Source: Mesorhizobium sp. (GTDB lineage Bacteria > Pseudomonadota > Alphaproteobacteria > Rhizobiales > Rhizobiaceae). From it: a stretch of DNA of 64,000 nt. The notes below the pieces were generated by a model, which saw only the letters and a program-made list of their open reading frames with translations, did no database searches and was not told where the DNA came from. The DNA is taken from assembly GCA_004017535.1 (NCBI GenBank), contig SAJS01000021.1, positions 49,063 through 113,062 of the forward strand. Reading direction: 5' to 3'. How positions within the stretch are numbered: position 1 is the first letter of the stretch; each line of letters opens with the position of its first letter. A program made the position numbers and the translations under genes. Shown here piece by piece: positions 3,932 through 44,575 of this stretch.

Positions 3932-4053
3932 TCCACACCTTTCGTCTCTTTTGTCGCGGAATATTTTCCAGTCAAAATCGGACACGGTCTCGAGGGCATC
4001 GCTCCCTCTGGCTTGCTTCAGCGAAGCTCTCACCGTGTTGCCGCACATCAAGC

Positions 4054-8695: not shown

Positions 8696-8819
8696 TCCAC
8701 ACCTTTCGTCTCTTTTGTCGCGGAATATTTTCCAGTCAAAATCGGACACGGTCTCGAGGGCATTGCTCCCTCTCGCTTGCTTCAGCGAAGCTCTCACCGT
8801 GTTGCCGCACATCAAGCAC

Positions 8820-8836
8820 GGCAAAGGGCATGCCAA
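8820..8836 (-). promoter_or_regulatory. Sigma-54 -24/-12 promoter of operon B
   Basis: The minus strand reads TTGGCATGCCCTTTGCC, a good RpoN match at the same place as the operon A promoter. No TGT-N10-ACA site was found within about 300 bases upstream, unlike operon A. Confidence 0.7.
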
Positions 8837-24341: not shown

Positions 24342-25067
24342 CTAGACCGCCCTCTTGTTACCCCAAAGCAGAACGTGCAGCTGCGGCAACACGCGGGCTT
24401 CGAACCACCTGTCGCTAGTCACCCTTTCGACAAGCCATTCCATTCGCATCATTATTCCGTCCAAGTCGACAGAGGCGTCTTCACTGCCAGGGCGCGGCGG
24501 CGTGTGATTGCCGGGTTGCAGATAGATCGGAAGGTGCGGATATCTCGCCGCGACTTCTTTGGCGTAGGCATAGTCACTCTCGTCGAAAACGACGAGCTTG
24601 AGCACGATTTGCGGCTTCTCTTGCGCCGCTTCGAGGCATGCATCAAACGCAGCCCAACGGGTCGTCATCTCGCTGGACGGCGGCTTTGGGCTAAGGGTCA
24701 GCACGTCAAGATCCGCAAACCACTCCCTCACCACGGAACCCTGCGTTTCCAGTGCAAAACGATAGCCCTCGCGATGGCCTCGTTCTATGAGGGGACCGAA
24801 CGGCTGAATGGCCGGGTTGCCGCCTGACAAGGAGACCATAACCGGCCTGCCGCCGGAAAGCGCATGGACGGTTTGCCACACGGCATCGATAGGCATCGGT
24901 AGCCATTCATGGCGATACTGATTGTCCACCGCGTGAAGGCTGTCGCACCATGAACAGCGATAATCACATCCGCCGGTTCTGATGAACACCGTCGGCAAGC
25001 CGATGAGCACGCCCTCGCCCTGGATAGTCGGCCCGAATATCTCGCTCACACGGATTGCAGGATGCAT
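24342..25067 (-). CDS. queE: 7-carboxy-7-deazaguanine synthase QueE
   Basis: A 241-residue radical SAM enzyme that converts 6-carboxytetrahydropterin to 7-carboxy-7-deazaguanine in preQ0/queuosine synthesis. The cluster motif CDYRCSWCD is at about residue 33; [12 protein letters not shown] and the C-terminal [13 protein letters not shown] are typical. The start at 25067 follows queD by five bases. Last gene of a compact queC-queD-queE operon. A decayed copy of its 3' end is at 22418-22620. Confidence 0.93.
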
Positions 25068-25072
25068 GTCGG

Positions 25073-25429
25073 TCACGGACGGTATTCCGCCCAAGTTTTC
25101 GGTGTTTCGCTAACGCGCACGGCCGCGGTCTGCGGCAGACGTGCCTTGCACCATTCATAGAAATGTCTGGCCAGGCATTCCGCCGTGACCTTCTCATGTC
25201 CCAGCACGTCGTTGAGGTGCCGATGGTCGAAGCTCTCGTCAATGTAGCGTTTGAGCGGCGCCAGATCGTGATAGTCGCGCACGAAGCCGTGGGCGTCCAG
25301 TTCCTTGGCCGACAGCTCCACTACGACGACATAGTTATGCCCGTGCAGGCGCGCGCATTGATGGTTGGGAGGCAAGGAGGTGAGCTGATGCGAGGCCGAG
25401 AAGTGGAATTCCTTGCTGATGTGGAACAT
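25073..25429 (-). CDS. queD: 6-carboxytetrahydropterin synthase QueD
   Basis: A 118-residue enzyme of the 6-pyruvoyltetrahydropterin synthase fold. Zinc histidines are in [11 protein letters not shown] and [15 protein letters not shown]; the active-site [10 protein letters not shown] block is present. Its start codon overlaps the queC stop (TAATG), so the two are translationally coupled. Confidence 0.94.
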
Positions 25430-26130
25430 TACGCGCGCCTCCTGCGCAGCGCCTCAAGCCAGAAATCGGCGTCCTCGTAGTCGGTGGGATCAGCGTGCCC
25501 GGCGAGATGGAACGCTTCGCGCCGCTCGACGCAGGTCCCGCATCGTCCGCAGTGACGCACGCCGCCCTTGTAACAGGACCAGGTCTCAGCAAACGGGGTG
25601 CCGTATCTTGCGCCATCCGCAACAATGTCAGCTTTTCCGAGATTCACATACGGTGCATAGAGGCGTATCTGCGCATAGCCGTCGAGCGCGCGGTCTTGCA
25701 TTGTCTGGAAAGCTTCAATGAAGGCCGGACGGCAATCGGGATAGATGAAATGGTCCCCACCATGCACGGCCGCCGCCACCGCTTCGGCGCTGTGGGCGGC
25801 GGCGAGACCGAAGGCGATTGCCAACATGATGGCATTGCGGTTCGGCACCACCGTAATCTTCATCGTGTCTTCGGCGTAGTGGCCGTCCGGCACGTCGATA
25901 CTGCTAGTCAGCGCTGAGCCGGAAAGGCCACGGCCAATTTCGCCGATGTCGATGATCTGGTGCGGGACCTTCAGTCGCTGCGCGCAAAGAGCGGCGAAGC
26001 CCAATTCCTTCCTGTGCCGTTGGCCATAGTCGAAAGATAGAAGGCCGGTGAGTTCGTGCTCCGCTGCCACCATGTGAGCAAGGGAAACGGAGTCCAATCC
26101 GCCAGAGCAGACGGCGAGAGTCTTCATCAT
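25429..26130 (-). CDS. queC: 7-cyano-7-deazaguanine synthase QueC
   Basis: A 233-residue ATP-dependent enzyme making preQ0 from 7-carboxy-7-deazaguanine. The PP-loop is VCSGGLDSVSLAHM; the C-terminal zinc cysteines are in SCYKGGVRHCGRCGTCVERREAF. The start is one of two adjacent ATGs at 26130 and 26127, preceded by AAGGATACC. A GTP cyclohydrolase step, QueF and Tgt are not in the window. A decayed 5' copy lies at 1074-1252 in the opposite orientation. Presence inside the symbiosis region suggests extra queuosine or 7-deazaguanine capacity in nodules. Confidence 0.95.
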   Translation of the reverse strand: MMKTLAVCSGGLDSVSLAHMVAAEHELTGLLSFDYGQRHRKELGFAALCAQRLKVPHQIIDIGEIGRGLSGSALTSSIDVPDGHYAEDTMKITVVPNRNAIMLAIAFGLAAAHSAEAVAAAVHGGDHFIYPDCRPAFIEAFQTMQDRALDGYAQIRLYAPYVNLGKADIVADGARYGTPFAETWSCYKGGVRHCGRCGTCVERREAFHLAGHADPTDYEDADFWLEALRRRRA

Positions 26131-26639
26131 TGGTATCCTTGTTTTGACCGGGTAAGGCTGCGACCGGAGATTTCTCTGCGCCCCCACTACTCCAGTGACT
26201 CAGTTTTGTGAACCGGGAGAATTTGCGCTCAGCCCGATTGGAACGGAAGTGCGTCGCGTCCAACACGCGTGATCAATAAAAGTTGAGCGCTTCAGCAGTT
26301 TGTTTCGCATCGCGCCAACTTTCGCAACCTGCTGTCGGATCGTCGACTTCGAGACAAGGTGATGTTCGGCCGACATCGGCTGACTCTCAATTAAGCCGCA
26401 GAACACATGTTGGCTTTCTGGCCTTCGCTTGTGCGGTTGGCACGACAATTGATATTCTATTTGTGGGGCGGCACACCCCGCCAGCCGAAAGTGGCAGTGA
26501 GCTCCTTCAGGCGCAGGTTGATGTGCTGATTATTCGGCGATTTTCCGATCTCGAACCAGAAAGCGAGGGCGACATGGATGCCAGCAAATTTGACATTGGC
26601 GACATCCGCCTGGAGAACCCTGCGCGGCGCGATTGAGGC
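26131..26639. other. Gap between queC and transposon debris
   Basis: No recognised gene. It contains a sigma-54-like sequence at 26437 and a weak open frame (to 26636) reading EGDMDASKFDIGDIRLENPA, family unknown, that ends just before the IS630 fragment. Confidence 0.4.
26437..26452 (+). promoter_or_regulatory. Orphan sigma-54-like sequence
   Basis: TTGGCACGACAATTGA matches the RpoN consensus except that the last position of the -12 element is A instead of C. No TGT-N10-ACA site is found upstream. Downstream lies an unrecognised open frame, then the IS630 fragment, so any gene it once served may be lost. Confidence 0.35.
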
Positions 26640-31058: not shown

Positions 31059-32093
31059 TCACGATGCGGCAACTCGAGCCATGATTTCGGATCGAATGGC
31101 CGATGCGGTGTATAGTGAGGCATCCAGCGGCAAATCCCCAAATGCCAGTTGACACAGAAGATAATTAGCACCTGCCTCTTCCAGCTGATCAAGGAGAGCT
31201 TTTCGGACAGAATCTGCCGTTCCCACGACGCACAATTCACTTTCAATTGCTGCATCGAAGTTCAAAGGCAAGTTTGGTGGAGTGGAAATGGCATTTAGTT
31301 CGTATAGAAATTTGAAGCTATTGAGCCATCGTTCATAGGCAGGTGCTGCGAGCAAATACGCATCTGTTTCAGAACGCCCTATCACCACCATTCGGAGCAA
31401 TCCAAGAAATGGCGCTTGCTGGCCAATGTCAGCATCGTGAATTCGGGCGGCGCGGAACGCGTCGGTAACGCTGCGAACAGAAGTGGAAGGTCCGACGCAG
31501 GCGATGTTTGCCCCATTCGCGGCGGCCCAGCTAGCCGGCTCGGGTCGATTGGTGGCGATCCATGTCGGCGGATGGGGATATTGGTGAGGTCTCAACGTCA
31601 GCGGAACATCTTTCAACTCAAAGTGGCGGCCCTGATAAGAAAGCGTCCCGCCTTTCATCGCATTGATGAGAATCTCACTGGCCTCCGCATACTGTTCTGG
31701 TGCTGCTTCTACAGCAACCCCGAAGTATCCCAATTCAGTGGGAGCAGAGCCGCGCCCTATGCCGAGTTCAAGCCTGCCGCCGCTCAACTGATCAAGCATG
31801 CAGATCTCCTCGAAGGCACGCAGCGGATGATAGAGCGCAAGTAGCATTACCATGGGACCAACACGAAGACTGCGGGTTCGCTGGGCGACGCTCGCTAAGA
31901 ACAAATTCGGTGATGGACCTCTGCCATGCGGCGTACAGTGGTGCTCGGCGAGATGATACGCATAAAAGCCATAGCCATCGCACGCTTCTGCTAGGCTCAG
32001 CCGATCTGCATATTGTTGTGCTATGTCATCGCCGTTTTCGTCCAGATGATCGAAGATGCCGAAGGTCAGGCCCGAAGCGGAAATTTTCTTCAA
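31059..32093 (-). CDS. Luciferase-like flavin monooxygenase (LLM class)
   Basis: A 344-residue protein of the bacterial luciferase-like superfamily, which uses reduced flavin (FMNH2 or F420-type) to oxidise an organic substrate. Seen: FGIFDHLDENG at the N-terminus, YAYHLAEHHCTPHGRGPSPN, VGPMVMLLALYHPLRAFEE and LSGGRLELGIGRGSAPTELG. Length is typical. It follows the hisC-like gene by about 95 bases on the same strand and may be cotranscribed. A second member of the superfamily is at 38267-39319. Substrate unknown. Confidence 0.88.
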   Translation of the reverse strand: MKKISASGLTFGIFDHLDENGDDIAQQYADRLSLAEACDGYGFYAYHLAEHHCTPHGRGPSPNLFLASVAQRTRSLRVGPMVMLLALYHPLRAFEEICMLDQLSGGRLELGIGRGSAPTELGYFGVAVEAAPEQYAEASEILINAMKGGTLSYQGRHFELKDVPLTLRPHQYPHPPTWIATNRPEPASWAAANGANIACVGPSTSVRSVTDAFRAARIHDADIGQQAPFLGLLRMVVIGRSETDAYLLAAPAYERWLNSFKFLYELNAISTPPNLPLNFDAAIESELCVVGTADSVRKALLDQLEEAGANYLLCQLAFGDLPLDASLYTASAIRSEIMARVAAS

Positions 32094-32187: not shown

Positions 32188-33303
32188 TTAATGCTTGTGC
32201 ACACCGCGATTCTTCTTAAAGCTCATACAGACGCGTTTGGCGGCAGCAAGGAATTTGTCCATCTGCTCTGTGGTGCCAATGCTGACGCGAATACAGTTCT
32301 TCAAATCTACGTCAGGAAAGCTGGCGATGAGGATCGCCTGCTCTTTCAACGCGGCTTGCCAGCATGAGCCCTCCTGTCCCGCCGGCACACGGGCCAGCAA
32401 AAAGTTTGCGTGGGAGGGTGTTACGGAAAAGCCAAGTTGCAACAGCGCCAGGGTCACTCGCTGTCGTTCATGCTTGATGTGCCTGTGGTTCTCTTCGTAG
32501 GCGTGGCGATGCGCAAGAATGCTTTTCCCGACCGCCTGCCCGATCACGTTCATGTTGAAGACATTCTGGATGTTGCGCAGCCTGCCAATGATTTCTGGGT
32601 GACCGAAACCGAAGCCGACTCGCACGCCAGCAGCAGCATAGCTCTTTGAAAAAGTCCTCAAGATCAAAAGATTCGGATGTCTATTGACGAGGCGCAGGGC
32701 ATTGTCGGGTGCGAAGTCAACGTAGGCCTCATCCAAGACGACCAAGCGATCTGCTTGCTCCACAAGGCGTTCGATTTCGGCCACCGGCACGAATGTTCCG
32801 GTCGGATTGTTCGGATTAGCCAACAGAATGAACTTCGCGTCTTTTGCGGGGCCGGACAGCAGTTTTTCTATCGGCAGGGGATGAGCTTCGCTCGATGCGA
32901 TTTCGAGAAACTCGGCACCCTGCAACATGGCAAGTTTACGGTTGAACGAAAATCCGGGCGACAGCATCGCCACTCTATCTCCTGGGGCGAGGAAAGCTCT
33001 GTAGATGAGTCCGAGCAGCTCCGACGAACCGTTGCCGGCAATCACCTGATCTTTGGAAAATCCGTAAGCATCGGAGGCAGCTGCCCTTAAGCTGAGATTG
33101 TCGTCTTCCGGATAAAGATACTGGTGTTCGATCGCAGCAATTGCACTTTGCATTACGCTCTTCGGCAACGGAAACGGGTTCTCGTTCGTATTTAGCTTAA
33201 CGCAATTTGCATCCGTCGCTGGTCCGTTGGACGAGAGAGCATCTAATTTGCTGGCCACCGGCGAAAAAAGCGAAAGCACGGTCTTCAGTTTTGCATCGCA
33301 CAT
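32188..33303 (-). CDS. hisC: Histidinol-phosphate aminotransferase family protein
   Basis: A 371-residue class I/II PLP aminotransferase of the HisC family. Seen: KLNTNENPFPLPKSV, the PLP-pocket GNGSSELLGLIYRAFL, LLANPNNPTGTFV, VVLDEAYVDFA and the PLP lysine in RTFSKSYAAAGVRVGFG. No other his genes are near; an island-borne HisC-like enzyme paired with an LLM monooxygenase could serve secondary metabolism, amino-acid supply or phenylalanine/tyrosine transamination. This specialised role is inferred from context only. Confidence 0.85.
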   Translation of the reverse strand: MCDAKLKTVLSLFSPVASKLDALSSNGPATDANCVKLNTNENPFPLPKSVMQSAIAAIEHQYLYPEDDNLSLRAAASDAYGFSKDQVIAGNGSSELLGLIYRAFLAPGDRVAMLSPGFSFNRKLAMLQGAEFLEIASSEAHPLPIEKLLSGPAKDAKFILLANPNNPTGTFVPVAEIERLVEQADRLVVLDEAYVDFAPDNALRLVNRHPNLLILRTFSKSYAAAGVRVGFGFGHPEIIGRLRNIQNVFNMNVIGQAVGKSILAHRHAYEENHRHIKHERQRVTLALLQLGFSVTPSHANFLLARVPAGQEGSCWQAALKEQAILIASFPDVDLKNCIRVSIGTTEQMDKFLAAAKRVCMSFKKNRGVHKH

Positions 33304-34537: not shown

Positions 34538-35199
34538 TTGGGGCGAAGCAGATATAAGGCCAGTGGGAAACCATCGAGGCAAAGTGACGGATCTAGCCCA
34601 GCTACGATCCGCATCCGACATTGTCGGACATCGGACAGCACCGCGATTCGCTGCATAGGAAGCCTGGAGTCGCGATTTCCCTTGGGGGAATCAGCGCATG
34701 AAAGGAGAGCTGGGTCGTGTCTGCCGAAATGAGAAATTGCTCCCCCTTATTGCCTCACCGAGGAATGTTACCCAGCGCGATAGACGGACATGCCCTACCT
34801 CCCCCCGTTGCAGCTGAGGGAGATAGGGGCCAGCTCTTCATTCAACCCTCATGGAGGATGATCAGCCCAGCCATTTCCATGCGCCGGCCTTCACAAGCCG
34901 TGCACCATTCAGGTTCTTTTCCTTGAAGCGCGACGATCCTTGTCAGACGTCGCAACACTTGCTGCCGAGAGCACGAGCTCTTCCTCGAGCATGCCTTGAT
35001 CTGCGCCTCGAACGGCTCGCACATGCTGGGTTTCAACGACTTCGCAGAGGTTGATATTCTGCAGTGACTTCGTCTCGCTGCTGCACGGCATTGACGCTGG
35101 GAGCCATGCTCGCGTGGCGCAATTGTGCTGAAGCCGGTGCCCACGGCAACGTTTCTTAACCCGCCCCAGATCCTGGCGTTTGGCTATTTCCGACATTCG
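34538..35199. other. Gap, nothing recognised
   Basis: About 660 bases upstream of the prxS activator site. Short frames on the minus strand show no family resemblance. Likely decayed DNA next to the asnB remnant. Confidence 0.4.
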
Positions 35200-35215
35200 T
35201 GTCCGGCTTCGGACA
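35200..35215. promoter_or_regulatory. NifA upstream activator site of prxS-rpoN2
   Basis: TGT-CCGGCTTCGG-ACA is a perfect TGT-N10-ACA site about 130 bases upstream of the -24/-12 element at 35344. Confidence 0.85.
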
Positions 35216-35343: not shown

Positions 35344-35360
35344 TTGGCATGGCGCTTGCG
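35344..35360 (+). promoter_or_regulatory. Sigma-54 -24/-12 promoter of prxS-rpoN2
   Basis: TTGGCATGGCGCTTGCG is a near-consensus RpoN promoter. The transcript would start near 35371, leaving an unusually long leader of about 250 bases before the prxS ATG. RpoN2 is thus expected to drive its own synthesis with NifA. Confidence 0.88.
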
Positions 35361-35621: not shown

Positions 35622-36155
35622 ATGACCGACAGAAAGAACGTTCCTCTCGTGACCTTTCGCACGCGTGTTCGCGATGAGTCGATCGGGGGGCCAAATCCTT
35701 ATCGGTGGGAGAACAAGACCTCCGACGATTATTTCGGGGGCAAGCGCGTCATCCTGTTCTCGCTGCCTGGCGCCTTCACCCCGACCTGCTCGACCTTCCA
35801 ACTGCCCGATTTCGAAAAACTCTATGATCAATTTCTGGAACTGCGAATTGACGCGATCTACTGCGTCTCGGTCAACGATGCTTTCGTCATGAATGCGTGG
35901 GGAAAGTCCTTGGGGCTGCAGAAGATCGAGCTGATCCCAGACGGGTCGGGCGAGTTCACGCGCAAAATGGGCATGCTGGTCGCGAAGGACAATCTGGGCT
36001 TTGGCATGCGCTCCTGGCGATACGCCGCTCTGATCGACGATGGCGTGGTGGAGCAGTGGTTCGAGGAGGAAGGCTTCTGTGACAACTGCGAGACGGACCC
36101 CTATGGCGTTTCATCCCCGCAAAACGTTCTCGACAAACTGAAGGCGGCGGCATGA
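35622..36155 (+). CDS. prxS: Symbiotic atypical 2-Cys peroxiredoxin PrxS
   Basis: A 177-residue peroxiredoxin of the Prx5-like AhpC/TSA group that reduces peroxides. Peroxidatic cysteine in LPGAFTPTCSTFQLPDFEKL; the expected PxxxT-C pattern is present. Two further cysteines (GFCDNCETDPYG) lie near the C-terminus. In Rhizobium etli the homologous prxS is cotranscribed with rpoN2 under NifA and serves in nodules; the same arrangement and promoter are seen here. Gap to rpoN2 is 68 bases. Confidence 0.93.
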   Translation: MTDRKNVPLVTFRTRVRDESIGGPNPYRWENKTSDDYFGGKRVILFSLPGAFTPTCSTFQLPDFEKLYDQFLELRIDAIYCVSVNDAFVMNAWGKSLGLQKIELIPDGSGEFTRKMGMLVAKDNLGFGMRSWRYAALIDDGVVEQWFEEEGFCDNCETDPYGVSSPQNVLDKLKAAA

Positions 36156-36223: not shown

Positions 36224-37657
36224 ATGCATCTCTCAGCAAGCCTGCTTCAACGCCAGAAGCAACGTATGGTCTTATCGCCTCAAGCCATTGAAGCTATTCG
36301 CTTGCTGCGATTGACGCATACTGAACTCCATCAGCTCGTGCAGCAGGCACTCGAGAGGAACCCCGTTTTGAAGCCTGACCCGTTTGACGACGATTCGTCG
36401 CTGTCAGGGGTGGATCAGCGGAGCAGTCAAAGCAGAAGCGAAATCGGCGAATCGCCCATTGGCGGGCCGTCTGGCGGGCGCGGGCAATGGAAGTCGCAAC
36501 GCAGTAGCGGCAACGATCGACCTGCCGTCGAGGAGTTTACCGCCCACACCGAAACATTGCACGACCATGTCGCCCGCCAGGTCGCCCTCACCCCGTTCAC
36601 CCCCCAGGAGCGGCTGATTGCCGGACAGCTCGCCGCCCATCTGGAGGACACTGGCTATCTTCAGGTAAACCTTTTCGATCTGGCCAGGAGGTTAAACGTT
36701 CGGCAAGCTGATGTGGAACGGGTCATCGGAATCTTGCAGCAATTTGATCCGCCGGGGATTTTTGCGCGAACTCTCAGCGAATGCCTGGAGATTCAGCTGC
36801 GCCAGCAAGACCGGTTCGACCCGGCTATGGCAGCTTTGGTCGCCAATCTCGAGATGCTTGCACGGGGGGATTTTCAGGGATTGAAGCAGCGTTGCGGAGT
36901 CGACGAGGAGGATCTCCTCGACATGAGGAACGAAATCCGCGCGCTCGATCCCAAGCCTGGAGACCGGTTCCAGTCCGGGACGCCGGAAACCATCGTACCG
37001 GACGTCTGGGTAATGCCCAAGTCCGAAGGTGGATGGCGGGTGGAGCTTGATCCGGCCACGCTGCCCAAAGTGTTGATCAACCACACCTATGTCGCCGAAA
37101 TCTCGCAGCTGACCAATCAAAATCCGGAAGGCAAAGCGTTTCTCGACCATTGCCAGGAAAAAGGGAACTGGCTGATCAGCTGCCTCGAGCAGCGCGCTAA
37201 GACGATCCTTAAGGTTGCGACCGAAATCGTGCGCCAGCAGGATGCCTTTTTTACACACGGCGTCGCCCATCTGCGGCCTCTCTGTCTCAAAAATGTCGCT
37301 GACGGGATCAAAATGCACCAGTCGACGGTAAGCCGGGTGGCTTCGAACAGGTACATGTTAACTCCGCGCGGGGTGTTCGAGCTGAAGTATTTTTTCACAG
37401 CGACAATCGCATCCTGCGAGGGCGGCGACGCGCACTCCGCCAAATCTGTCCGCCATCGGATCAAGGCAATCATCGCCGAAGAATCGCTCGACAAGGTACT
37501 TTCCGACGAAGACATCGTTGCTCAGCTCAAGCAGACCGGCATCAATGTCGCTCGCCGTACCGTCACCAAATATCGCGAGGCGATGAACATCCCTTCCTCC
37601 ATACTACGGCGCCGCGATAAGCGTTTGTCCGCAGCTGCGATCAAGCGAAGTGACTAA
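36224..37657 (+). CDS. rpoN2: RNA polymerase sigma-54 factor, symbiotic copy
   Basis: A 477-residue sigma-54. Region I is MHLSASLLQRQKQRMVLSPQ followed by the leucine/glutamine-rich activator-interaction segment; region II is short and acidic; region III contains the core-binding part (LEIQLRQQDRFDPAM onward), the helix-turn-helix MHQSTVSRVASNRYMLTPRG and the RpoN box ARRTVTKYREAMNIPSS near the C-terminus. It should recognise the -24/-12 promoters listed here. Located behind prxS, so made mainly in nodules; a chromosomal rpoN is expected elsewhere. Its stop overlaps the convergent nifQ by four bases. Confidence 0.96.
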   Translation: MHLSASLLQRQKQRMVLSPQAIEAIRLLRLTHTELHQLVQQALERNPVLKPDPFDDDSSLSGVDQRSSQSRSEIGESPIGGPSGGRGQWKSQRSSGNDRPAVEEFTAHTETLHDHVARQVALTPFTPQERLIAGQLAAHLEDTGYLQVNLFDLARRLNVRQADVERVIGILQQFDPPGIFARTLSECLEIQLRQQDRFDPAMAALVANLEMLARGDFQGLKQRCGVDEEDLLDMRNEIRALDPKPGDRFQSGTPETIVPDVWVMPKSEGGWRVELDPATLPKVLINHTYVAEISQLTNQNPEGKAFLDHCQEKGNWLISCLEQRAKTILKVATEIVRQQDAFFTHGVAHLRPLCLKNVADGIKMHQSTVSRVASNRYMLTPRGVFELKYFFTATIASCEGGDAHSAKSVRHRIKAIIAEESLDKVLSDEDIVAQLKQTGINVARRTVTKYREAMNIPSSILRRRDKRLSAAAIKRSD

Positions 37658-38280
37658 CCGGCATTCCTGGTCGGCGAGAGGCGACTCTCAACTTCCTCCG
37701 GGCCGAAGCAGCTTTCGAAGTCCTGGCATTCCCGACAACTGGGTGCAGTGCATGACGAAAAGCCTTCGGCCTCACACAGCTTGCGGTAAAAGTACTTTTT
37801 CCATTTCATGTTTTCTGTGTTGCCTGCCGCCAGCGCGGGAAAATGTCTGGCAAGCAGGCGGCTGAGCTCAGCGCGATTTGAGAGGCCAAGATCCCGCCAA
37901 AGATGGTCCGTGCGCATCGCACGCCGGGCGATGATCTTGGCCAAGCGGCCGCTCGCCGGGTCGGCCGGCGCAGCATGCGCTAGCAGCAGCCGGCGTAGCA
38001 GCTCCTCTTCCAGTTCCGGCTCGGGCTCGCTCAACTCCTCCAAAGCGAATACGCTGCTGGAGGTAGACGGGAAAGTTGCGGCCAAGACATCACGCAATTC
38101 GACAGACGAAAGGCCTGTCCCCTCCGTCGCCAACACCTCGCCCGCCTGGACCTCCTCAAGCGAACGTGAATGTACGCAGGGCAGCACATGCTGATCGAAG
38201 CTCCTCCCTAGCTCGGACCCACGCCATTGCGCGCTGGATAGGCAGCCATCATCGTAACGGCCGGCTTCAGCTTCCGGCAT
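37654..38280 (-). CDS. nifQ: Molybdenum delivery protein NifQ
   Basis: A 208-residue NifQ, proposed to carry molybdenum as a Mo-Fe-S cluster for FeMo-cofactor synthesis. The signature C-X4-C-X2-C-X5-C is seen in CTAPSCRECQDFESCFG near the C-terminus, preceded by MKWKKYFYRKLCEAEGF. The ATG at 38280 overlaps the end of the upstream monooxygenase gene by 14 bases, making it the last gene of the P450 operon. It converges on rpoN2 with overlapping stops, leaving no room for a terminator. Confidence 0.93.
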   Translation of the reverse strand: MPEAEAGRYDDGCLSSAQWRGSELGRSFDQHVLPCVHSRSLEEVQAGEVLATEGTGLSSVELRDVLAATFPSTSSSVFALEELSEPEPELEEELLRRLLLAHAAPADPASGRLAKIIARRAMRTDHLWRDLGLSNRAELSRLLARHFPALAAGNTENMKWKKYFYRKLCEAEGFSSCTAPSCRECQDFESCFGPEEVESRLSPTRNAG

Positions 38281-39319
38281 GACAAAGCGCCTTGTTGACC
38301 GCAGGGATGATCTTGTCGCCCCAGAGCTCGATCTGGCGCAGCATCGTCTTTTGGTCGAAGTCGCCCAATTGAGTCTGAACTGCGATCTGGTCCGGTTTCA
38401 AGATATCGATCTCTTCCAGCAGGCGATCAATCACGCGATTTACGCTGCCAATCGGCAAATTTTTGCGCATGGTCTCGAAGGACAGATCCTGCTGGGTCGG
38501 TGTCTCCTGCAGCAGGTAGCCATCGTGGCTCTGTTGGCGGCGCTGATGCAGGGCTTCAGAAAGCCGGCGCTGGAAGCGGGCATTGTCGAGATAGCTGTTG
38601 ATCTCCAACTCGTCGTGGCTGGCATAGCAGCAGCGCAGCAGCGATATCTTGACGTCGGTGACGTTCTTTTCCTCGGATGCCGCCGCCCTCTCGACTGATT
38701 CACGCAGTGTGGTCAAAGTCTCTAAGCCGTCGTGGAAGGCTGTGACAAAAAAATTGTGCCCCTCGCGGTAGGCCCGAGCCATCCGTGCGGCTCCGCCAGC
38801 GATCCAGATAGGCGGCGTCGGCTGCTGGACTGTGCGGACCGAAATCGCTGTTGGGGGGATCTTCTCATACTGGCCGTCGTGTTCGAAGACGTTTTGGTTG
38901 AGGCCCTTGAGAATGATGTCCAGGTATTCCGAAAAGACGGCCGGCGCCTCATCGATGTCCACGCCGAACCGTTCGAACTCGAACTGCTGGTATCCCAAGC
39001 CTACGCCGAGCTCGAGACGGCCGTTCGCAACGATGTCGGCGAAGCCGATCTCGGACAGCAGGCGCTGCGGTTGGTAAAGCGGCAGCACGCAGACGGCAGT
39101 GCCCAGGCGAATCGTGCTTGTCAAGCCGGCGCAGTGCGCCACCATCATCAGCGGGGATGGTATGAGGCTGTAATTGTTGAAGTGGTGCTCAGCAAACCAC
39201 GCGGTGTTGAACCCAGCCTGCTCCGAAGCGACGGCCTGTTCGATGGAGTTGCGGATGACGCTTTCTGAGGATTGGTGATAGCCACGCTGGGCGGCCAGAA
39301 TGAAAGTGGCAAATTCCAT
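38267..39319 (-). CDS. Luciferase-like flavin monooxygenase, y4vJ-type
   Basis: A 350-residue LLM-class protein. Seen: FATFILAAQRGYHQSSESV, FNTAWFAEHHFNNYSLIPSP, RLGTAVCVLPLYQPQRLLSE and NGRLELGVGLGYQQFEFERF, typical of flavin-dependent oxidoreductases with an EHHF motif. Fourth gene of the minus-strand operon starting with the P450; overlaps nifQ. A homologous gene (y4vJ) lies in the nif region of plasmid pNGR234a near nifQ and a P450, as I recall. Probable role: oxidation of a small symbiosis-specific metabolite together with the P450 and the double SDR protein. Confidence 0.88.
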   Translation of the reverse strand: MEFATFILAAQRGYHQSSESVIRNSIEQAVASEQAGFNTAWFAEHHFNNYSLIPSPLMMVAHCAGLTSTIRLGTAVCVLPLYQPQRLLSEIGFADIVANGRLELGVGLGYQQFEFERFGVDIDEAPAVFSEYLDIILKGLNQNVFEHDGQYEKIPPTAISVRTVQQPTPPIWIAGGAARMARAYREGHNFFVTAFHDGLETLTTLRESVERAAASEEKNVTDVKISLLRCCYASHDELEINSYLDNARFQRRLSEALHQRRQQSHDGYLLQETPTQQDLSFETMRKNLPIGSVNRVIDRLLEEIDILKPDQIAVQTQLGDFDQKTMLRQIELWGDKIIPAVNKALCHAGS

Positions 39320-39457
39320 GATTTCTCCTCGTTATAGACACGTCAGCCGACCGGGAATGTGCTCGGCATGCACATGCTTGGATCTCAAGCACCTCAGGTG
39401 CGTCGTGGAGCCGAGGCTTCATAATGCTCGGCCGGTCGCCCTGCGAAGGCCTGGCAA

Positions 39458-41059
39458 TTAACCTGCGGCCTCCGCAAAACATTCGTCATAGAGTTCGCTG
39501 GCGTTTCCCGCATCACCGAACGAGGTCCAGCCGCCGTCCACGTAGAGGATCGAGCCGTTGATGTATGAGGCGTCAGACGAAGCAAGGAAGAACGATGCAT
39601 CTGCGACGTCTTCTGGCCGTCCCATCCTGCCCATGGGGATGCGTCGTCCGATTGCTGTCAGGTCGATGCGGCCGGCTTTGGCCAACTGAGCAAGTGCGGG
39701 CGTGCGGATGTGGCCAGGAGCGACGGTGGCTGTCCGAATTCCGACCGGCCCGAGTTCGGCCGCCATGCAACGGGTCAGCATATCCATCCCCGCCTTGGAG
39801 GCGCCGTAGGCATGGCGCGGCGCGAACGGCAGAAAGCTGTCGATCGACCCGAGATTGAGGATCACGCCGCCCGGGCGCATAGCCTTGATCGCTTCGCGCG
39901 CGCAGGTGAAGGCGCCGGTAAGGTTGACATCCAGGACGTGTTCGAGCTGTTTCGACAGTTGCTCGATCGCAGGCACAATCCTGTCGGCGGTATCAGCACT
40001 ATTGACCAGAACATCGATATACCCGAAGCGTCCCCTCAGTTCTTCGAACATCGACACCACATCGCTCTCGACGGCCACGTCCAGCGATTTCGCCAGATGC
40101 TTGCCGGGGAGCGATGTAGCCAGCTCTGCCGCTGCAGTGCCATCTTTATCAGCAATCACGACGGTGTCGCCGTTCGCGGCAAAGCGGCGAGCGACGGCCG
40201 CGCCAATGCTTTTTGCGCCACCGGTGACGAGCACGATTCGCGCATCTGTGCATTCGGCCGGACAGGAGAGCTCGGCTTGGAGCGCACCATCCACCGGCGG
40301 GTGAGCATCCCCCGGCTGGTTGAATGACATCCAGCCTCCGTCGACTGCCAGCACCGAGCCGGTGATGTAGCGCGCCTGCGTGCTGCTCAGAAAACGCACG
40401 ACCCTGGCGATCTCGTCGGGGCGAGCCAAGCGCCCCATCGGCACGCGGCGGCGTATCGCCGCGAGGTCCATTTTGCCAGCGCGTGCCAGTTCTGTGACCA
40501 TTGGGGTGCGGACGGAGCCCGGCGCCACCGCCGTGACGCGGATTCCTCGCATAGCCCACTCGCATGCAAGGGACTTTGTCAACGAGATCACGCCAGCTTT
40601 CGAGGCTGCGTAGGCGTTGCGCCTGGGATTGCCGACCACGCCCGCCATCGAAGCCACATTGACGATCGCACCGCCCGGCTTCATGCGCCGCGCCGCTTCC
40701 CGGGCCATAACGAATGGCCCAATAAGGTTCACTGTCACGCCGCGTCGGAAGGTATCGACAGCGGTGTCGATGATCCTATCCATCGTGGGTCCAACCGCCG
40801 CATTGTTGATGAGGACATCGATTTGCGCGAACCGTGCTTCGACCTGGCCGAAAAGTGAGAGCATGTCCTTCTCTCGCGACACATCGCACTCCAGACCGAC
40901 GTGCGGCGACCCGAGATCCCGAGCCAGTTCAACCACACCACTGCCCGGAAGGTCCACCGCAACTACAGTGTCTCCGTCCGCGGCAAGGATATCGACCAGG
41001 GCACGGCCGATCCCGCCCGCAGCGCCTGTGATGATTACGGTGCGTGCTGCCAGTTTCAC
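39458..41059 (-). CDS. Double short-chain dehydrogenase/reductase fusion, y4vI-type
   Basis: A 533-residue protein made of two complete SDR domains. Domain 1 (about 1-250): NAD(P) motif TGAAGGIG, NNAA, catalytic Ser in NVASMAGVVG and YAASK, ending VLAVDGGWMSF. Domain 2 (about 275-520): TGGAKSIG, VNSADTA in place of NNAG, NLGSIDSF and YGASK, ending ILYVDGGWTSF. Both catalytic triads appear intact, so two different oxidations or reductions could be done by one chain. The C-termini of the two domains are strongly alike (RRVPMGRLARPDEIA and RRIPMGRMGRPEDVA), showing internal duplication. Similar double SDR proteins (y4vI) occur in the nif region of pNGR234a. Confidence 0.9.
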   Translation of the reverse strand: MKLAARTVIITGAAGGIGRALVDILAADGDTVVAVDLPGSGVVELARDLGSPHVGLECDVSREKDMLSLFGQVEARFAQIDVLINNAAVGPTMDRIIDTAVDTFRRGVTVNLIGPFVMAREAARRMKPGGAIVNVASMAGVVGNPRRNAYAASKAGVISLTKSLACEWAMRGIRVTAVAPGSVRTPMVTELARAGKMDLAAIRRRVPMGRLARPDEIARVVRFLSSTQARYITGSVLAVDGGWMSFNQPGDAHPPVDGALQAELSCPAECTDARIVLVTGGAKSIGAAVARRFAANGDTVVIADKDGTAAAELATSLPGKHLAKSLDVAVESDVVSMFEELRGRFGYIDVLVNSADTADRIVPAIEQLSKQLEHVLDVNLTGAFTCAREAIKAMRPGGVILNLGSIDSFLPFAPRHAYGASKAGMDMLTRCMAAELGPVGIRTATVAPGHIRTPALAQLAKAGRIDLTAIGRRIPMGRMGRPEDVADASFFLASSDASYINGSILYVDGGWTSFGDAGNASELYDECFAEAAG

Positions 41060-41207
41060 GAGAGCTTCTCCACGATGACCGCTTGTGATCTCAGCCCATC
41101 AACCTTGGGCGGAATGAAGGGCCGAGCCAAATCGTTGCAGTGACCGCCAGTTGCGGCCCCACACAGATGTCGTTCCCGTAGGGCGCTCATCCTCCATTTC
41201 TACCCAC

Positions 41208-42056
41208 TTATGCAGCTCCCAGTTGGGGACCCTCGACGCCATCTTGGTCGGTGGGGATGTGACCCTTGAGCAACTGGTAGATGGGATCGTCTGGATGTTG
41301 TGCTCCAATCGGCTGTCGCCGGCCGAACCTATCTGCCTCAAGAATCGCTGGCGGGATTTGCTCCTCAACCCAATCGTAGACGACTGTCCGTTCCGCAATT
41401 CGCCACTCGTCCTGCCTCTTCTGAAACAGATCGCAGTAACGGCCGCAAAGCAGCGTCTGACGTATTTCTTGGTCTGTATCCGGTCCGCGTTGCAGCGCGG
41501 TGAAATAGCTCTCGACCGCGGCCTCTGCTGAACTGATGAAGTCGATCAGGCTGTTCGTGATTTGATGGATGTTACGGTGCCCCGGCAGACCGAGAGCAAA
41601 TTGGATGAAGTCCTCTGCCGGTCCGCAATAGGGACCGTGCCTGTCATACGCTTCGGGCCAGTATGCGCTACGCAGCGCCGCCTCATCGGCGCGGTCTATC
41701 CCGCGGCAGTACCGATACAGGCAGTTGCGGATCGCCTCTCGGTCACGCAGTTCGGTAATTTTCGCGTGGTCGACAGGGTCTGTCGCGAATTGTATGATTG
41801 TTTTATCCTTCCCGATGCCAGTCTGCACTTTGCGTGTGTCTCTCTCTACAACTGAGTTAGCGGGGGGCTCGTCAACTTCCAGAGCTTGTTCGGGGCAGGC
41901 TCGTACCCCTTTTGAGGCAAGCAGTTGCTCCCCATCGGCAACATCAATATCACCGGGCAAGATGTAGCCGGCGTCATCAAGCTTGAAGACTCTCGGCGCC
42001 CGCGCCCAGCAGCGCGCATGACCCTGGCATCTGGCTTTATGTACGACGACACGCAT
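41208..42056 (-). CDS. [3Fe-4S] ferredoxin fused to an NTF2/SnoaL-like domain
   Basis: A 282-residue protein. Residues 1-65 are a single-cluster [3Fe-4S] ferredoxin of the P450-partner type: [20 protein letters not shown] and the third cysteine in [13 protein letters not shown]. After a linker, residues 100-260 form an NTF2/SnoaL-like cone fold ([23 protein letters not shown]-type pocket residues in [15 protein letters not shown]), as in ring-hydroxylase beta subunits and polyketide cyclases. The start at 42056 skips four in-frame codons. It lies 30 bases after the P450, so the ferredoxin part is its likely electron donor and the second part may act on the product. Confidence 0.85.
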
Positions 42057-42085
42057 AGCGAACTCCAATGTCGTTGGCTGAAACT

Positions 42086-43351
42086 TCAGGACCAGTCCAG
42101 GATCAGATTCTCGATCCCGAACACATGGCCGCCGAAGGTGATAGGTTCAGTCCCTGTCTTGATCCGAAAGGCTGGGATGCGCGCCAGCCACTCCTCCAGG
42201 CCAATGACAATCTCCCGCCGGGCAAGGTGTGAGCCAAGACAACGATGGGGACCATAGCCAAAGGCAGCGTGCCGGTTGTCCTCGCGCGCCAGATCGATCT
42301 CATTCGGGCATTCGAATTCCGCCGGGTCACGATTGGCAATCATCGTGGCACAGGAAACATAGTCTCCCTTGCGGATCGGCGCGCCTTTGAAGTCGACATC
42401 CTTCGTTGCCACTCGGATCATCTGAATGGTCGAATAGGCGCGCAGCAATTCTTCCGCAGCGACGGCAATCCGGTCCGGTTCGCTTCGTAGCAATTCCTGA
42501 TCTTTGGGGTTGCGCGCGAGATGGGCCAAGTCGAAGCATATGGCTGCTGAGACCGTGTCGAGTCCCGCGACGAACACAAGCACGCCGATGCCACGGACTT
42601 CTTCGTCACTGAGCAGACGACCCTCGACCTTTGCCTTCACGATGAAGGTCATGAAATCATCGACCGGCTCCTTGCGGCGCTCGGTGGCAAGTTCGTCGAT
42701 GAAGGCCACGATCGTCCGGGCTGCGGGTGGTCGTTGCTCCTTATCGCCGTGGAGCAGATCTCTAGCCCAGCCGACAAATGTTTCTAGTCCGTTGTCCGAA
42801 AGCCCAATAAAGCGAAGGAAGATATTGACCGCGAACGGAACTGCAAAATCCTTCATGATGTCGCAGCTCGTGCCTGATGCGGCGATCCTGTCGATCAGCT
42901 TGATCGCTCGTTCCCGGACAGCCGGCTCCAATGCCATTACCCGCTTTGGCGAAAGCAGCGGATTGAGCAGTGAGCGAAAAACACCGTGGAATGGCGGATC
43001 GAGCTCAAGCGGGATCATCGGCCAGCTCTCGCCGAGCACAGAGGCGAAGATGCTGCGATGGCTGGAAAACGTTTCGGTGTCCTGCAGCACCCGGCGCTGG
43101 TCGCTCGCGCGAGTGATGACCCAGGTACCCCGACCGTCGCGCGTGTTGCTGGTTGAATAAAAGATCGGAGGCCCGGCATGAACGCAAGCAACCGCTGCAT
43201 GCGGATCCCCGTTAGCGGTCGGCAACATGCCGGGCGACGTAAACAGGCTGAAGTCCCTCACCATTTCGGGCGGGACATGATCTGGAACCGGCCGCGATTT
43301 AACCGCGCCAGAATCGAGAGACCGTTCATGAGATGCTGTCGGCATTTGCAT
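42086..43351 (-). CDS. Cytochrome P450, CYP127-like (y4vG-type)
   Basis: A 421-residue soluble P450. Heme-binding loop [18 protein letters not shown] with the cysteine ligand, I-helix oxygen-binding [10 protein letters not shown], and the ExxR motif in [14 protein letters not shown]. First gene of an operon with ferredoxin fusion, double SDR, flavin monooxygenase and nifQ. A NifA/sigma-54 promoter lies directly upstream: the predicted transcription start nearly coincides with the ATG at 43351, so the mRNA would be leaderless or the start is wrong; the next ATG is at 43345 and another far inside at 43264. Similar P450 genes occur beside nif genes on pNGR234a and other symbiotic regions; the product is unknown. 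Confidence 0.9.
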
Positions 43352-43362
43352 GCAATCGTTGG

Positions 43363-43379
43363 TGCAAGCTCCGTGCCGA
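43363..43379 (-). promoter_or_regulatory. Sigma-54 -24/-12 promoter of the P450-nifQ operon
   Basis: The minus strand reads TCGGCACGGAGCTTGCA, an excellent RpoN match. It is followed only about 12 bases later by the annotated ATG. Confidence 0.88.
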
Positions 43380-43461
43380 ATTCGTCTTTCGATAATCCTT
43401 GCCGTTTGCTGGGCAACAGGTGGCGCCTGCGCTGACTTGCTGGTCGGGATTGCAACATTCT

Positions 43462-43477
43462 TGTCCAGCGTCGGACA
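43462..43477 (-). promoter_or_regulatory. NifA upstream activator site of the P450-nifQ operon
   Basis: TGT-CCAGCGTCGG-ACA is a perfect TGT-N10-ACA site 83 bases upstream of the -24/-12 element. The IS481-family element begins only about 50 bases further upstream. Confidence 0.85.
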
Positions 43478-43528
43478 CAGAATGTAGAAAGCTAGACACC
43501 GACTTGGAGCAACTCAACTGGTGGGATC

Positions 43529-44575
43529 GCTAGCTGTGGAGCCTCAACAGGTTGTCCTCGGTTAGAGCGAGGCGACTGATAGGTGTTTTGGACTTTAGGC
43601 TCCCGTGGGGACGGTGCCAATTGTATCTGTGCAGCCAGACCGGCAACTCTGCGGCGCGGTGATCTGAAGTCGGATAAGCGATGGCATAAGCCCATTCGCG
43701 CAGTGCTGTCTGGATGAAGCGCTCGGCCTTGCCATTGGTCTTGGGTGTATAGGGTCTTGTCCTGACGTGCTTGAGGCCGAGATCGCGGCAGGCCTTGGCG
43801 AAGGCCTTTGATCTGTAGCAGGAGCCGTTGTCGGTCATGACGCGGGCTATCGTGACGCCGAGGCTGGCGTAGTAGGCCACCGCCGCCTTGAGGAAGGCGA
43901 TGGCGCTTTCTTTTTTCTCGTCGGGCAGGATCTGCGAGAAGGCGATGCGGGAGGCGTCGTCGATGCAGACATGGACGAACTCCCAACTGCTGCCGCGCGA
44001 GCTGGCATTGCCGGTGCGCTTGCCGGTAATGCGATGACCGATGCGCTCGAAACGACCGAGCTTCTTGATATCGATATGGATCATCTCGCCAGGATGCTCG
44101 CGCTCGTAGCGTCGGATCGGCTCGGCCGGTTCGATATCCCGCAACCGCGACAGTCCGGCACGCTTGAGAACCCGGCTAACGGTGGCGGGCGAGACGCCGA
44201 CCTCATGGGCGATGTGCTTGCCGGTCCAACGTTGCCGCCGCAGCGCCATGATGCGCTCGGCGATCAACGCAGCGGTGGCCTGCGGCATATGGGCGGGCCG
44301 CGAGGAACGGTCGATCATGCCGGCCCGCCCTTCGGACTTGTAGCGCTCGACCCAGCGCGCCACGATCTTGGCCGACACGCCGTAGACACGCGCCGCATGG
44401 GCTTTGGAGAAAGCGCCTTCTATCACCGACAGCGCCATCTCCTCTCGACGCAGCGGTGTGAGACGGGCATTCTTATGGATGTTCATTCGGATCCTCCGAT
44501 GGATGCTGAAGCGTGGTAACTCCAGTCTCCTCGGTCCGGTCCGAATGGACAACCTCCCGAAAGCTCACAGCTAGC
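43529..44575 (-). mobile_element. IS481-family insertion sequence
   Basis: Inverted ends are visible: GCTAGCTGTGGAGCC on the left and GCTAGCTGTGAGCTT (complement) on the right, each followed by AGGTTGTCC. The single transposase gene fills the element. The right limit is uncertain by a few bases and no clear target duplication was found. It sits just upstream of the NifA site of the P450 operon. Confidence 0.7.
43530..44486 (-). CDS. IS481-family transposase
   Basis: A 318-residue DDE transposase. N-terminal helix-turn-helix region MNIHKNARLTPLRREEMALS and AHAARVYGVSAKIVARWVER; catalytic domain with HIDIKKLGRFERIG (first Asp), VMTDNGSCYRSKAF (second Asp) and TNGKAERFIQTALREW (Glu). The start at 44486 is the family start. 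Complete and possibly active. Confidence 0.92.
   Translation of the reverse strand: MNIHKNARLTPLRREEMALSVIEGAFSKAHAARVYGVSAKIVARWVERYKSEGRAGMIDRSSRPAHMPQATAALIAERIMALRRQRWTGKHIAHEVGVSPATVSRVLKRAGLSRLRDIEPAEPIRRYEREHPGEMIHIDIKKLGRFERIGHRITGKRTGNASSRGSSWEFVHVCIDDASRIAFSQILPDEKKESAIAFLKAAVAYYASLGVTIARVMTDNGSCYRSKAFAKACRDLGLKHVRTRPYTPKTNGKAERFIQTALREWAYAIAYPTSDHRAAELPVWLHRYNWHRPHGSLKSKTPISRLALTEDNLLRLHS

Follow-up and report, generated by a model that had tools for sequence, protein, structure and literature searches.

A rearranged nifQ-y4vGHIJ (CYP127) operon with a ferredoxin-NTF2 fusion in Mesorhizobium sp., under predicted NifA control

In a 64,000-nucleotide stretch of Mesorhizobium sp. DNA (contig SAJS01000021.1, positions 49,063 to 113,062; hereafter the window), five minus-strand genes running from 43351 down to 37654 encode a cytochrome P450, a ferredoxin fused to a SnoaL_4 (NTF2-type) domain, a tandem short-chain dehydrogenase (SDR), a luciferase-like (LLM class) flavin monooxygenase and NifQ. 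Judged by orthology and gene order, this set is a rearranged form of the nifQ-dctA1-y4vGHIJ (CYP127) operon of Sinorhizobium fredii NGR234. That operon had already been named and mutated, so the novelty implied in a preliminary description of the window, made from its letters alone, does not hold for the operon as such. What is new here is the fusion variant with its two-step history (a deletion, then loss of an inner ATG in the chickpea lineage), together with a picture of decay in two modules and a clue to the chemistry from the catabolic neighbourhoods of relatives. The features concerned are as follows:

42086..43351, minus strand: cytochrome P450, CYP127-type, y4vG orthologue (Pfam and homology; start at 43351, 43345 or 43264)
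41208..42068, minus strand: ferredoxin-NTF2 fusion, y4vH orthologue in its NTF2 half (Pfam and homology)
39458..41059, minus strand: tandem SDR, y4vI orthologue, Y-x3-K in each of two domains (Pfam and homology)
38267..39319, minus strand: LLM class flavin monooxygenase, y4vJ orthologue (Pfam and homology)
37654..38280, minus strand: nifQ, Cx4Cx2Cx5C motif, its first 14 nt shared with the 3' end of the LLM gene (Pfam)
43363..43378, minus strand: sigma-54 type -24/-12 element CGGCACGGAGCTTGCA (GG-N10-GC), differing at one position from the consensus used (motif scan)
43462..43477, minus strand: NifA upstream activator site, exact, TGTCCGACGCTGGACA (motif scan)
43483..43498, minus strand: second TGT-N10-ACA site, TGTCTAGCTTTCTACA (motif scan)
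36224..37657, plus strand: rpoN2 (sigma-54), convergent with nifQ, with which it shares 4 nt; neighbouring gene, outside the operon (Pfam)

The five open reading frames (ORFs) match, in order, the Pfam families p450; Fer4_15 plus SnoaL_4; two stretches of adh_short_C2; Bac_luciferase; and NifQ. The signature motifs are intact, i.e., the P450 heme motif and the helix motif AGLDT, the ferredoxin motif CQGHARC, both SDR Y-x3-K motifs and the NifQ Cx4Cx2Cx5C motif. Intergenic distances from the P450 gene to nifQ are 17, 148, 138 and -14 nt, and three terminator-like sites were found within the stretch, where shuffled sequences have 5.0 on average; only one of the three is on the operon strand. From strand, spacing and conservation, the five genes probably form one operon ending in nifQ, as the preliminary description had it. 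The start of the P450 gene is ambiguous: the ATG at 43351 lies 11 nt past the end of the -24/-12 element, alternative in-frame starts are found at 43345, 43264 and 43261, and the annotated start of two relatives is the codon equivalent to 43264.

On pNGR234a the gene order is nifQ, dicarboxylate symporter, P450, NTF2, SDR and LLM, followed by nifHDKENX, in agreement with the operon name that Fumeaux et al. 2011 use in their title, nifQdctA1y4vGHIJ. The window's P450, NTF2, tandem SDR and LLM are orthologous to their NGR234 counterparts (74, 69, 63 and 82 percent identical, respectively) and lie in the same order on one strand. In both cases nifQ belongs to the unit, and a NifA upstream site and a sigma-54 promoter precede the first gene. 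The window differs in that a ferredoxin is fused to the NTF2 domain, nifQ is last rather than first, dctA1 is absent and the promoter stands directly before the P450 gene. A P450 is assigned to a family when it is more than 40 percent identical to a named member; at 74 percent identity to the NGR234 enzyme, which we take to be CYP127A1, the window P450 belongs to CYP127. Polar mutants in nifQ and dctA1 were reportedly Fix+ on all hosts tested; an essential role of the operon in the nodule is therefore unlikely. Our literature search by the y4v gene names retrieved no paper on the operon itself, apart from citations of the title of Fumeaux et al. 2011, and no physiological substrate is named in the literature found, as the preliminary description had supposed.

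The window operon is very probably switched on together with nitrogen fixation, under predicted NifA/sigma-54 control. The word 'perfect' in the preliminary description is true of the NifA site, which is exact, but not of the -24/-12 element with its one mismatch. Taken singly, the TGT-N10-ACA motif is not rare: it occurs 12 times in the window against a shuffle mean of 7.7 (12 or more in 9 of 100 shuffles). CGGCACGGAGCTTGCA is one of four -24/-12 sites of equal quality (one mismatch) in the window. Of 50 non-redundant sequences taken from in front of the P450 gene, 27 contain the pair, an upstream activator site and a -24/-12 element 50-130 bp apart, compared with a mean of 0.04 and a maximum of one in 50 for 50 sets of Markov-resampled sequences, which rules out a chance promoter. 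When nifH-type TGGCACG-N4-TTGAA promoters and distances of up to 3.5 kb upstream were allowed, in a wider search run without a shuffle control, 13 further regions had the pair; since that of L106, 2.2 kb upstream, is doubtful, the total is 39 or 40 of the 50 upstream regions. The -24/-12 element alone is present in six of the other 10 (L004, L084, L085, L088, L092 and L095), and none was detected by the wider scan in L006, L069 or L081, the last of which had shown a weak one in the first scan; the sequence of L068 ends 282 bases upstream and fell outside the wider rescan.

Expression data are available from a related unit. Per excerpts of PMC3538637, the P450-ferredoxin unit msi332-msi331 of M. 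loti R7A is preceded by a nifQ fragment and a NifA promoter. In nodules, a msi332 (P450)::lacZ fusion gave 446.6 units in the wild type, but 273.5 when nifA1 was missing and 14.6 when nifA2 was. This unit shares with the window operon a P450, a possible ferredoxin, a NifA promoter and, in R7A, NifA2-dependent nodule expression; it differs in that only the P450 and the ferredoxin are listed for it. The fusion strain is a cis-merodiploid that retains msi332 (excerpts of PMC3538637), so its fully effective symbiosis is uninformative on loss of function, and a no-phenotype claim drawn from R7A was dropped. Transcription may also read through into the window operon from an IS481-type transposase gene (43530-44552), since that gene lies on the operon strand about 30 bp beyond the upstream activator sites.

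The window appears to come from a chickpea-type Mesorhizobium; the 27 best P450 matches among named species genomes (L027-L053) are nearly identical and include M. mediterraneum and M. muleiense. Among 394 sampled genomes of the family, 17 have a P450 of 70 percent identity or more (one of them a fragment), 24 have NifD (E < 1e-150) and 16 have both, so that CYP127 occurs in 16/24 nifD-positive versus 1/370 nifD-negative genomes (Fisher p 1e-21, a value that serves only as a guide, the sampled genomes being related). One genome, G194, has the P450 without NifD, and eight have NifD without the P450. Genome G244, with a P450 of only 36 percent identity (L025), was excluded from these counts, and none of the other queries matched in it at the thresholds used. 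Across 397 sampled genomes of the order, P450 matches outside the family did not exceed 38 percent at E < 1e-50, although Microvirga does carry the operon. This result contrasts with the P450 genes blr1853 and blr2143 of B. diazoefficiens, which are strongly down in a nifA mutant (excerpts of PMC4926349). Among the best 80 of 126 P450 relatives in the whole species collection, 79 bear rhizobial names (Mesorhizobium, Microvirga, Sinorhizobium/Ensifer, Rhizobium and Aminobacter) and one is labelled 'Bacterium'; these loci were recruited by their P450, so loci without it are under-counted. A reverse check on 24 chosen genomes found LLM in none and NTF2 in two of the eight that are nifD-positive but lack CYP127. 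A class-wide LLM protein search of 289 genomes at E 1e-90 matched only the window's own genome, and a phylum search with an NTF2 relative matched 6/349 genomes, five of them in the window's family. CYP127 thus tracks nif, which the preliminary description had proposed to examine, and the operon, far from being absent from other symbiotic regions, is conserved among symbionts.

The fusion protein consists of a 3Fe-4S-type ferredoxin (residues about 5-70), a linker of roughly 30 residues and a SnoaL_4/NTF2 domain with Asp125/His168. At loci with separate genes, an interval of 204-308 bp (430 bp in L056, where NTF2 is broken) divides the aligned ferredoxin and NTF2 parts, which are kept from joining by stops or a change of frame. 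A continuous frame is found in 34 locus records, among them near-identical strains, same-strain duplicates and the window's own genome twice. The fusion is confined to the window group and one other Mesorhizobium locus group, so it marks the window operon, for which the preliminary description gave it, and not the operon generally. The two window-group sequences compared share with L083, L084, L095 and L088 one deletion of about 150 bp at the junction. The frame is preserved by each of the linker lengths seen in the fusions (87, 90 and 96 nt); in L088 a 4-base insertion has shifted the frame, and the SDR gene of that locus is interrupted by a stop. The old NTF2 ATG is still in frame in L083, L084 and L095 and has become GTC in all 31 window-group records. 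Obligate fusion in the chickpea lineage is therefore likely, short of proof, because an upstream GTG codon in the linker could serve as a start for NTF2. In a P450 tree of 46 of the 103 P450s (near-copies removed), the window is separated from the fused L083/L095 within an unresolved fork. We prefer a single deletion of about 150 bp, since the junction DNA is identical in the deletion across both fused groups, and assume recombination or poor tree resolution, since the tree does not group the two fused sets; two independent origins, to which the tree split would point, seem less likely. With the fusion seen both with and without the inner start codon, a bifunctional ferredoxin protein may be followed through a stepwise origin, and the fusion suggests which enzyme works beside the P450. 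A literature search for a SnoaL-ferredoxin fusion turned up none, judged by titles and the opening of abstracts, among the 10 of 29 matches listed. In-frame ferredoxin fusions of other kinds, cyp114-fd and fd-sdr, occur in the gibberellin operon of some lineages, and fd-sdr has been verified as active in M. loti (excerpts of PMC7273348).

The operon takes several arrangements. The S. fredii type is nifQ-dctA-P450-NTF2-SDR-LLM without a ferredoxin; Sinorhizobium terangae and R. etli sv. mimosae IE4771 have P450-ferredoxin-NTF2-SDR-LLM with no nifQ within 8 kb; and nifQ follows LLM in M. amorphae and the chickpea type. Relatives of R. etli/phaseoli and some Mesorhizobium keep P450-ferredoxin with remnants or none of the other genes. 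Plasmids of R. leguminosarum sv. trifolii keep NTF2-SDR-LLM beside P450 fragments with no intact P450, and those of S. meliloti keep NTF2 and LLM beside such fragments. The fragments next to NTF2 and LLM at L115, L116, L120 and L121 (R. leguminosarum and S. meliloti plasmids) indicate that these lineages once held more of the set. P450-ferredoxin and NTF2-SDR-LLM are thus two sub-modules that can outlive each other.

Relatives of the second sub-module lie in seven non-symbiotic clusters, from G064, Pseudosulfitobacter, two Sulfitobacter, two Variovorax and G1307 (a genome of the same class). G064, a large genome of the window's family, has the symbiotic operon and, far from it, a second NTF2-SDR-LLM set (L107) with 70 percent identity for each protein, accompanied by an extra LLM, an SDR, a solute-binding protein, an SMP-30 lactonase and a coenzyme A (CoA) ligase of the ADP-forming type. 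The other six clusters hold relatives of LLM, of NTF2 or of both, at 46-62 percent identity for the three LLM proteins measured and 54-57 percent for the five NTF2 proteins measured; no NTF2 match was obtained in L118, and the LLM search left out L130 and L133/L134. An SMP-30 lactonase is present in 6/7 clusters (none within 12 kb in L131), and an acetate-CoA-ligase-family (ADP-forming type) gene likewise in 6/7, identified by Pfam in L107 and L119 and by annotation in the other four, with an AMP-type ligase instead in L133/L134. Several clusters also have acyl-CoA dehydrogenases, enoyl-CoA hydratases, SDRs and transporters, and a flavin reductase adjoins LLM in all three Roseobacter plasmids examined. 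A type I Baeyer-Villiger monooxygenase adjoins NTF2 in G1307 and lies one gene from it in Pseudosulfitobacter; its identity, established in these two clusters only by a search of the Protein Data Bank, is given by phenylacetone, steroid and cyclohexanone monooxygenases as the nearest structures (best E < 1e-170). On a plain reading, these clusters would take a ketone to a lactone, a hydroxy acid and a CoA ester. Nothing was found in a literature search for the gene set. The neighbourhoods of these relatives offer a route to the substrate in easier organisms (Roseobacter, Variovorax).

The nearest solved structures to the P450 of the window operon are P450cam and other CYP101 enzymes (E 2.5e-66, residues 19-420). 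CYP127A3 is listed as testosterone hydroxylating (PMC8197338, table), which agrees with an alicyclic substrate and says little on the natural one. The ferredoxin, with its CxxHxxC...CP motif, is nearest to the FdxE-CYP143 fusion and other small ferredoxins, a likeness that suggests a 3Fe-4S cluster. The NTF2 profile matches the scytalone-dehydratase-like 3ef8 (4e-7) and LinA (8e-7), and its Asp and His, invariant in 20/20 aligned sequences, align with the catalytic Asp and His of LinA; as a SnoaL_4 domain with this conserved pair it belongs with the LinA/scytalone-dehydratase-like proteins and is a putative dehydratase or other eliminase. A structure model of the fusion was poor (mean predicted local distance difference test score, pLDDT, 59), and a structure-led guess at the substrate failed on that account; the model's Foldseek matches (scytalone-dehydratase-like proteins, bile-acid 7-alpha dehydratase, LinA and LdpA) count, because the model is weak, only as agreeing with the sequence profile. 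The tandem SDR scores 718.9 against the two-domain family PRK06484 (cut-off 713). The nearest solved relatives of the LLM are bacterial luciferase alpha chains, 2i7g and 7bip, rather than diketocamphane-type enzymes, so we do not class it as a type II Baeyer-Villiger (LLM class) enzyme, though it may work like one.

Starting from what can be observed directly (gene content, the conserved promoter pair, constraint, the decay pattern, the fusion junction and the neighbourhoods of relatives), we infer a step order, a chemistry for each enzyme, a substrate class and a direction of recruitment. We tentatively propose, as something that is quite possibly the case, a NifA-driven oxidative pathway acting on an alicyclic, terpenoid- or steroid-like compound, with NTF2-SDR-LLM recruited from a catabolic cassette. 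NifA would switch on a short oxidative pathway in bacteroids, in which CYP127, fed by the 3Fe-4S-type ferredoxin, would hydroxylate a C-H bond of the small cyclic compound and the tandem SDR would oxidise the alcohol to a ketone. The reduced-flavin-dependent LLM might then insert oxygen at or near the ketone, in a type II Baeyer-Villiger-like manner, to give a lactone or a further oxidised product, and the SnoaL/NTF2 domain, having retained the Asp/His pair seen in LinA/scytalone-dehydratase-like enzymes, would remove water or perform some other elimination. The product may be a signal, a detoxified host compound or an intermediate that enzymes encoded elsewhere complete. The NTF2-SDR-LLM half would have been taken from a cyclic-ketone catabolic cassette whose lactonase and CoA steps were left behind, and a P450cam-like hydroxylase with its ferredoxin placed ahead of this front part; the fusion would hold the ferredoxin together with the eliminase, as a single polypeptide, next to the P450. 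The suggestion of a terpenoid, fatty acid or hormone signal in the preliminary description is thereby narrowed to an inferred alicyclic terpenoid- or steroid-like compound. If the proposal is true, an orphan nif-tied pathway gains testable chemistry, namely a cyclic compound oxidised only during nitrogen fixation.

Ring opening of the camphor or cyclohexanol type proceeds through a hydroxylase or alcohol dehydrogenase, a Baeyer-Villiger monooxygenase and a lactonase. Compared by genes alone, the window operon shares with it a P450cam-like enzyme, a dehydrogenase and a flavin monooxygenase, as well as NTF2/LLM relatives found beside a Baeyer-Villiger monooxygenase and an SMP-30 lactonase; it differs in having another ferredoxin type and neither lactonase nor CoA ligase. 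Several points weigh against the proposed pathway. The symbiotic operon has neither the lactonase nor the CoA ligase on which the catabolic clue rests, so its final product may be something other than a lactone. LLM enzymes catalyse many reactions, with luciferases, not Baeyer-Villiger enzymes, as the nearest solved ones here, and the resemblance to P450cam is at family level only. P450-ferredoxin survives without SDR-LLM, and NTF2-SDR-LLM without an intact P450, which makes one obligate linear pathway awkward. S. fredii-type operons have no ferredoxin gene, the fusion model is poor, and the NGR234 polar mutants are reportedly Fix+. A bolder version, in which bacteroids of several rhizobial genera make an unrecognised oxygenated cyclic metabolite (a ketone or lactone derived from a terpenoid- or steroid-like compound of host or bacterial origin) under NifA and deliver it at the nitrogen-fixing stage, the chickpea fusion channelling an intermediate, we regard as doubtful.

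The pathway might instead destroy or blunt a cyclic defence compound of the host in the nodule without making any signal. The non-symbiotic relatives look catabolic, and patchy decay across lineages fits a host-dependent benefit. Yet the symbiotic operon is without the lactonase, CoA ligase and transporters needed for full degradation, and the P450 turned up in symbionts, not broadly among soil bacteria (79 rhizobial names among the best 80 of 126). We consider detoxification somewhat unlikely.

A further question is whether the genes matter little and persist through a NifA promoter and a replicon shared with nifQ and nifH, a view to which decay in both directions and the reportedly Fix+ phenotype of the polar NGR234 mutants lend some weight. 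Median pairwise dN/dS is 0.16 for P450, 0.21 for ferredoxin, 0.16 for NTF2, 0.25 for SDR and 0.12 for LLM, compared with 0.22 for nifQ, 0.26 for rpoN2, 0.19 for nifS, 0.12 for prx, 0.09 for nifD and 0.03 for nifH among the controls. These values come from 33 chosen loci out of the 103 with a long P450 match (fewer for controls, e.g., seven for nifH and six for nifD) and from intact genes only, which biases them towards constraint. Intact copies of the operon genes are under purifying selection, and a simple relic is disfavoured by medians of 0.12-0.25. Over hundreds of pairs these resemble other nif accessory genes, the promoter pair is kept in 39 or 40 of 50 upstream regions and the three linker lengths all keep frame, so that mere hitch-hiking seems improbable.

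The enzymes could also form a hormone side branch that modifies gibberellin or a precursor, the operon travelling with the rhizobial gibberellin biosynthetic operon (cyp112-cyp114-fd-sdr-cyp117-ggps-cps-ks). Both are symbiont operons in which P450, ferredoxin and SDR genes stand together; that of the window is without terpene cyclases, has its ferredoxin fused to an NTF2 domain and uses another P450 family. The class I terpene synthase family PF19086 occurs in 12/16 CYP127 genomes versus 0/8 other nifD-positive ones (Fisher p 0.0013). In the two loci inspected (by motif search only) it adjoins P450-, prenyltransferase- and cyclase-like ORFs, as in the gibberellin operon, and CYP127 is reported together with CYP173, CYP112, CYP114 and CYP117 in 10 species (excerpts of PMC8197338). 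However, both sets ride on symbiosis plasmids or islands and the 24 genomes are not independent, so the co-occurrence is explicable by shared ancestry. Moreover, the window's genome has no PF19086 match although its operon is intact, and three other CYP127 genomes also lack the family, so the CYP127 operon is independent of bacterial gibberellin. Membership in the gibberellin operon was rejected, there being no GGPS, CPS, KS or CYP112/CYP114/CYP117 genes in the operon and no PF19086 in the window's genome, and a side branch modifying gibberellin, kept as a weak candidate on account of the co-occurrence, is quite improbable. Most improbable is oxygen or redox housekeeping, in which P450, ferredoxin and flavin enzyme would consume or buffer oxygen and electrons near nitrogenase with an incidental substrate. 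In its favour, a NifA-regulated P450 (cpx, which may or may not be CYP127) is grouped with microoxia adaptation (excerpts of PMC4999443), nif genes are neighbouring and P450-ferredoxin is able to survive alone. It does not account, however, for SDR and eliminase domains that retain their catalytic residues, and every part of the operon is under constraint where the copies are intact.

Some further features of the window were observed. TGT-N10-ACA sites at 34622-34637, 35200-35215 and 35345-35360 and a -24/-12-like TGGCATGGCGCTTGCG precede the peroxiredoxin-rpoN2 pair, prxS (35622-36155)-rpoN2 (36224-37657), and prxS-rpoN2 of M. loti R7A is listed with the same kind of NifA-type promoter (excerpts of PMC3538637). 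By eye, from the translations, a second luciferase-like ORF of this symbiotic region appears to lie beside an aminotransferase-like ORF (31059-32093 and 32188-33303, both minus strand). QueE- and QueC-like ORFs, also assigned by eye, lie within the nif region (24342-26187, minus strand); in P. phymatum, queE is one of the genes that go down in a nifA mutant (PMC8305402, table). Two thioredoxin-domain-like ORFs (2756-4051 and 7532-8836, both minus strand), long and closely alike, look, again by eye, like a duplication.

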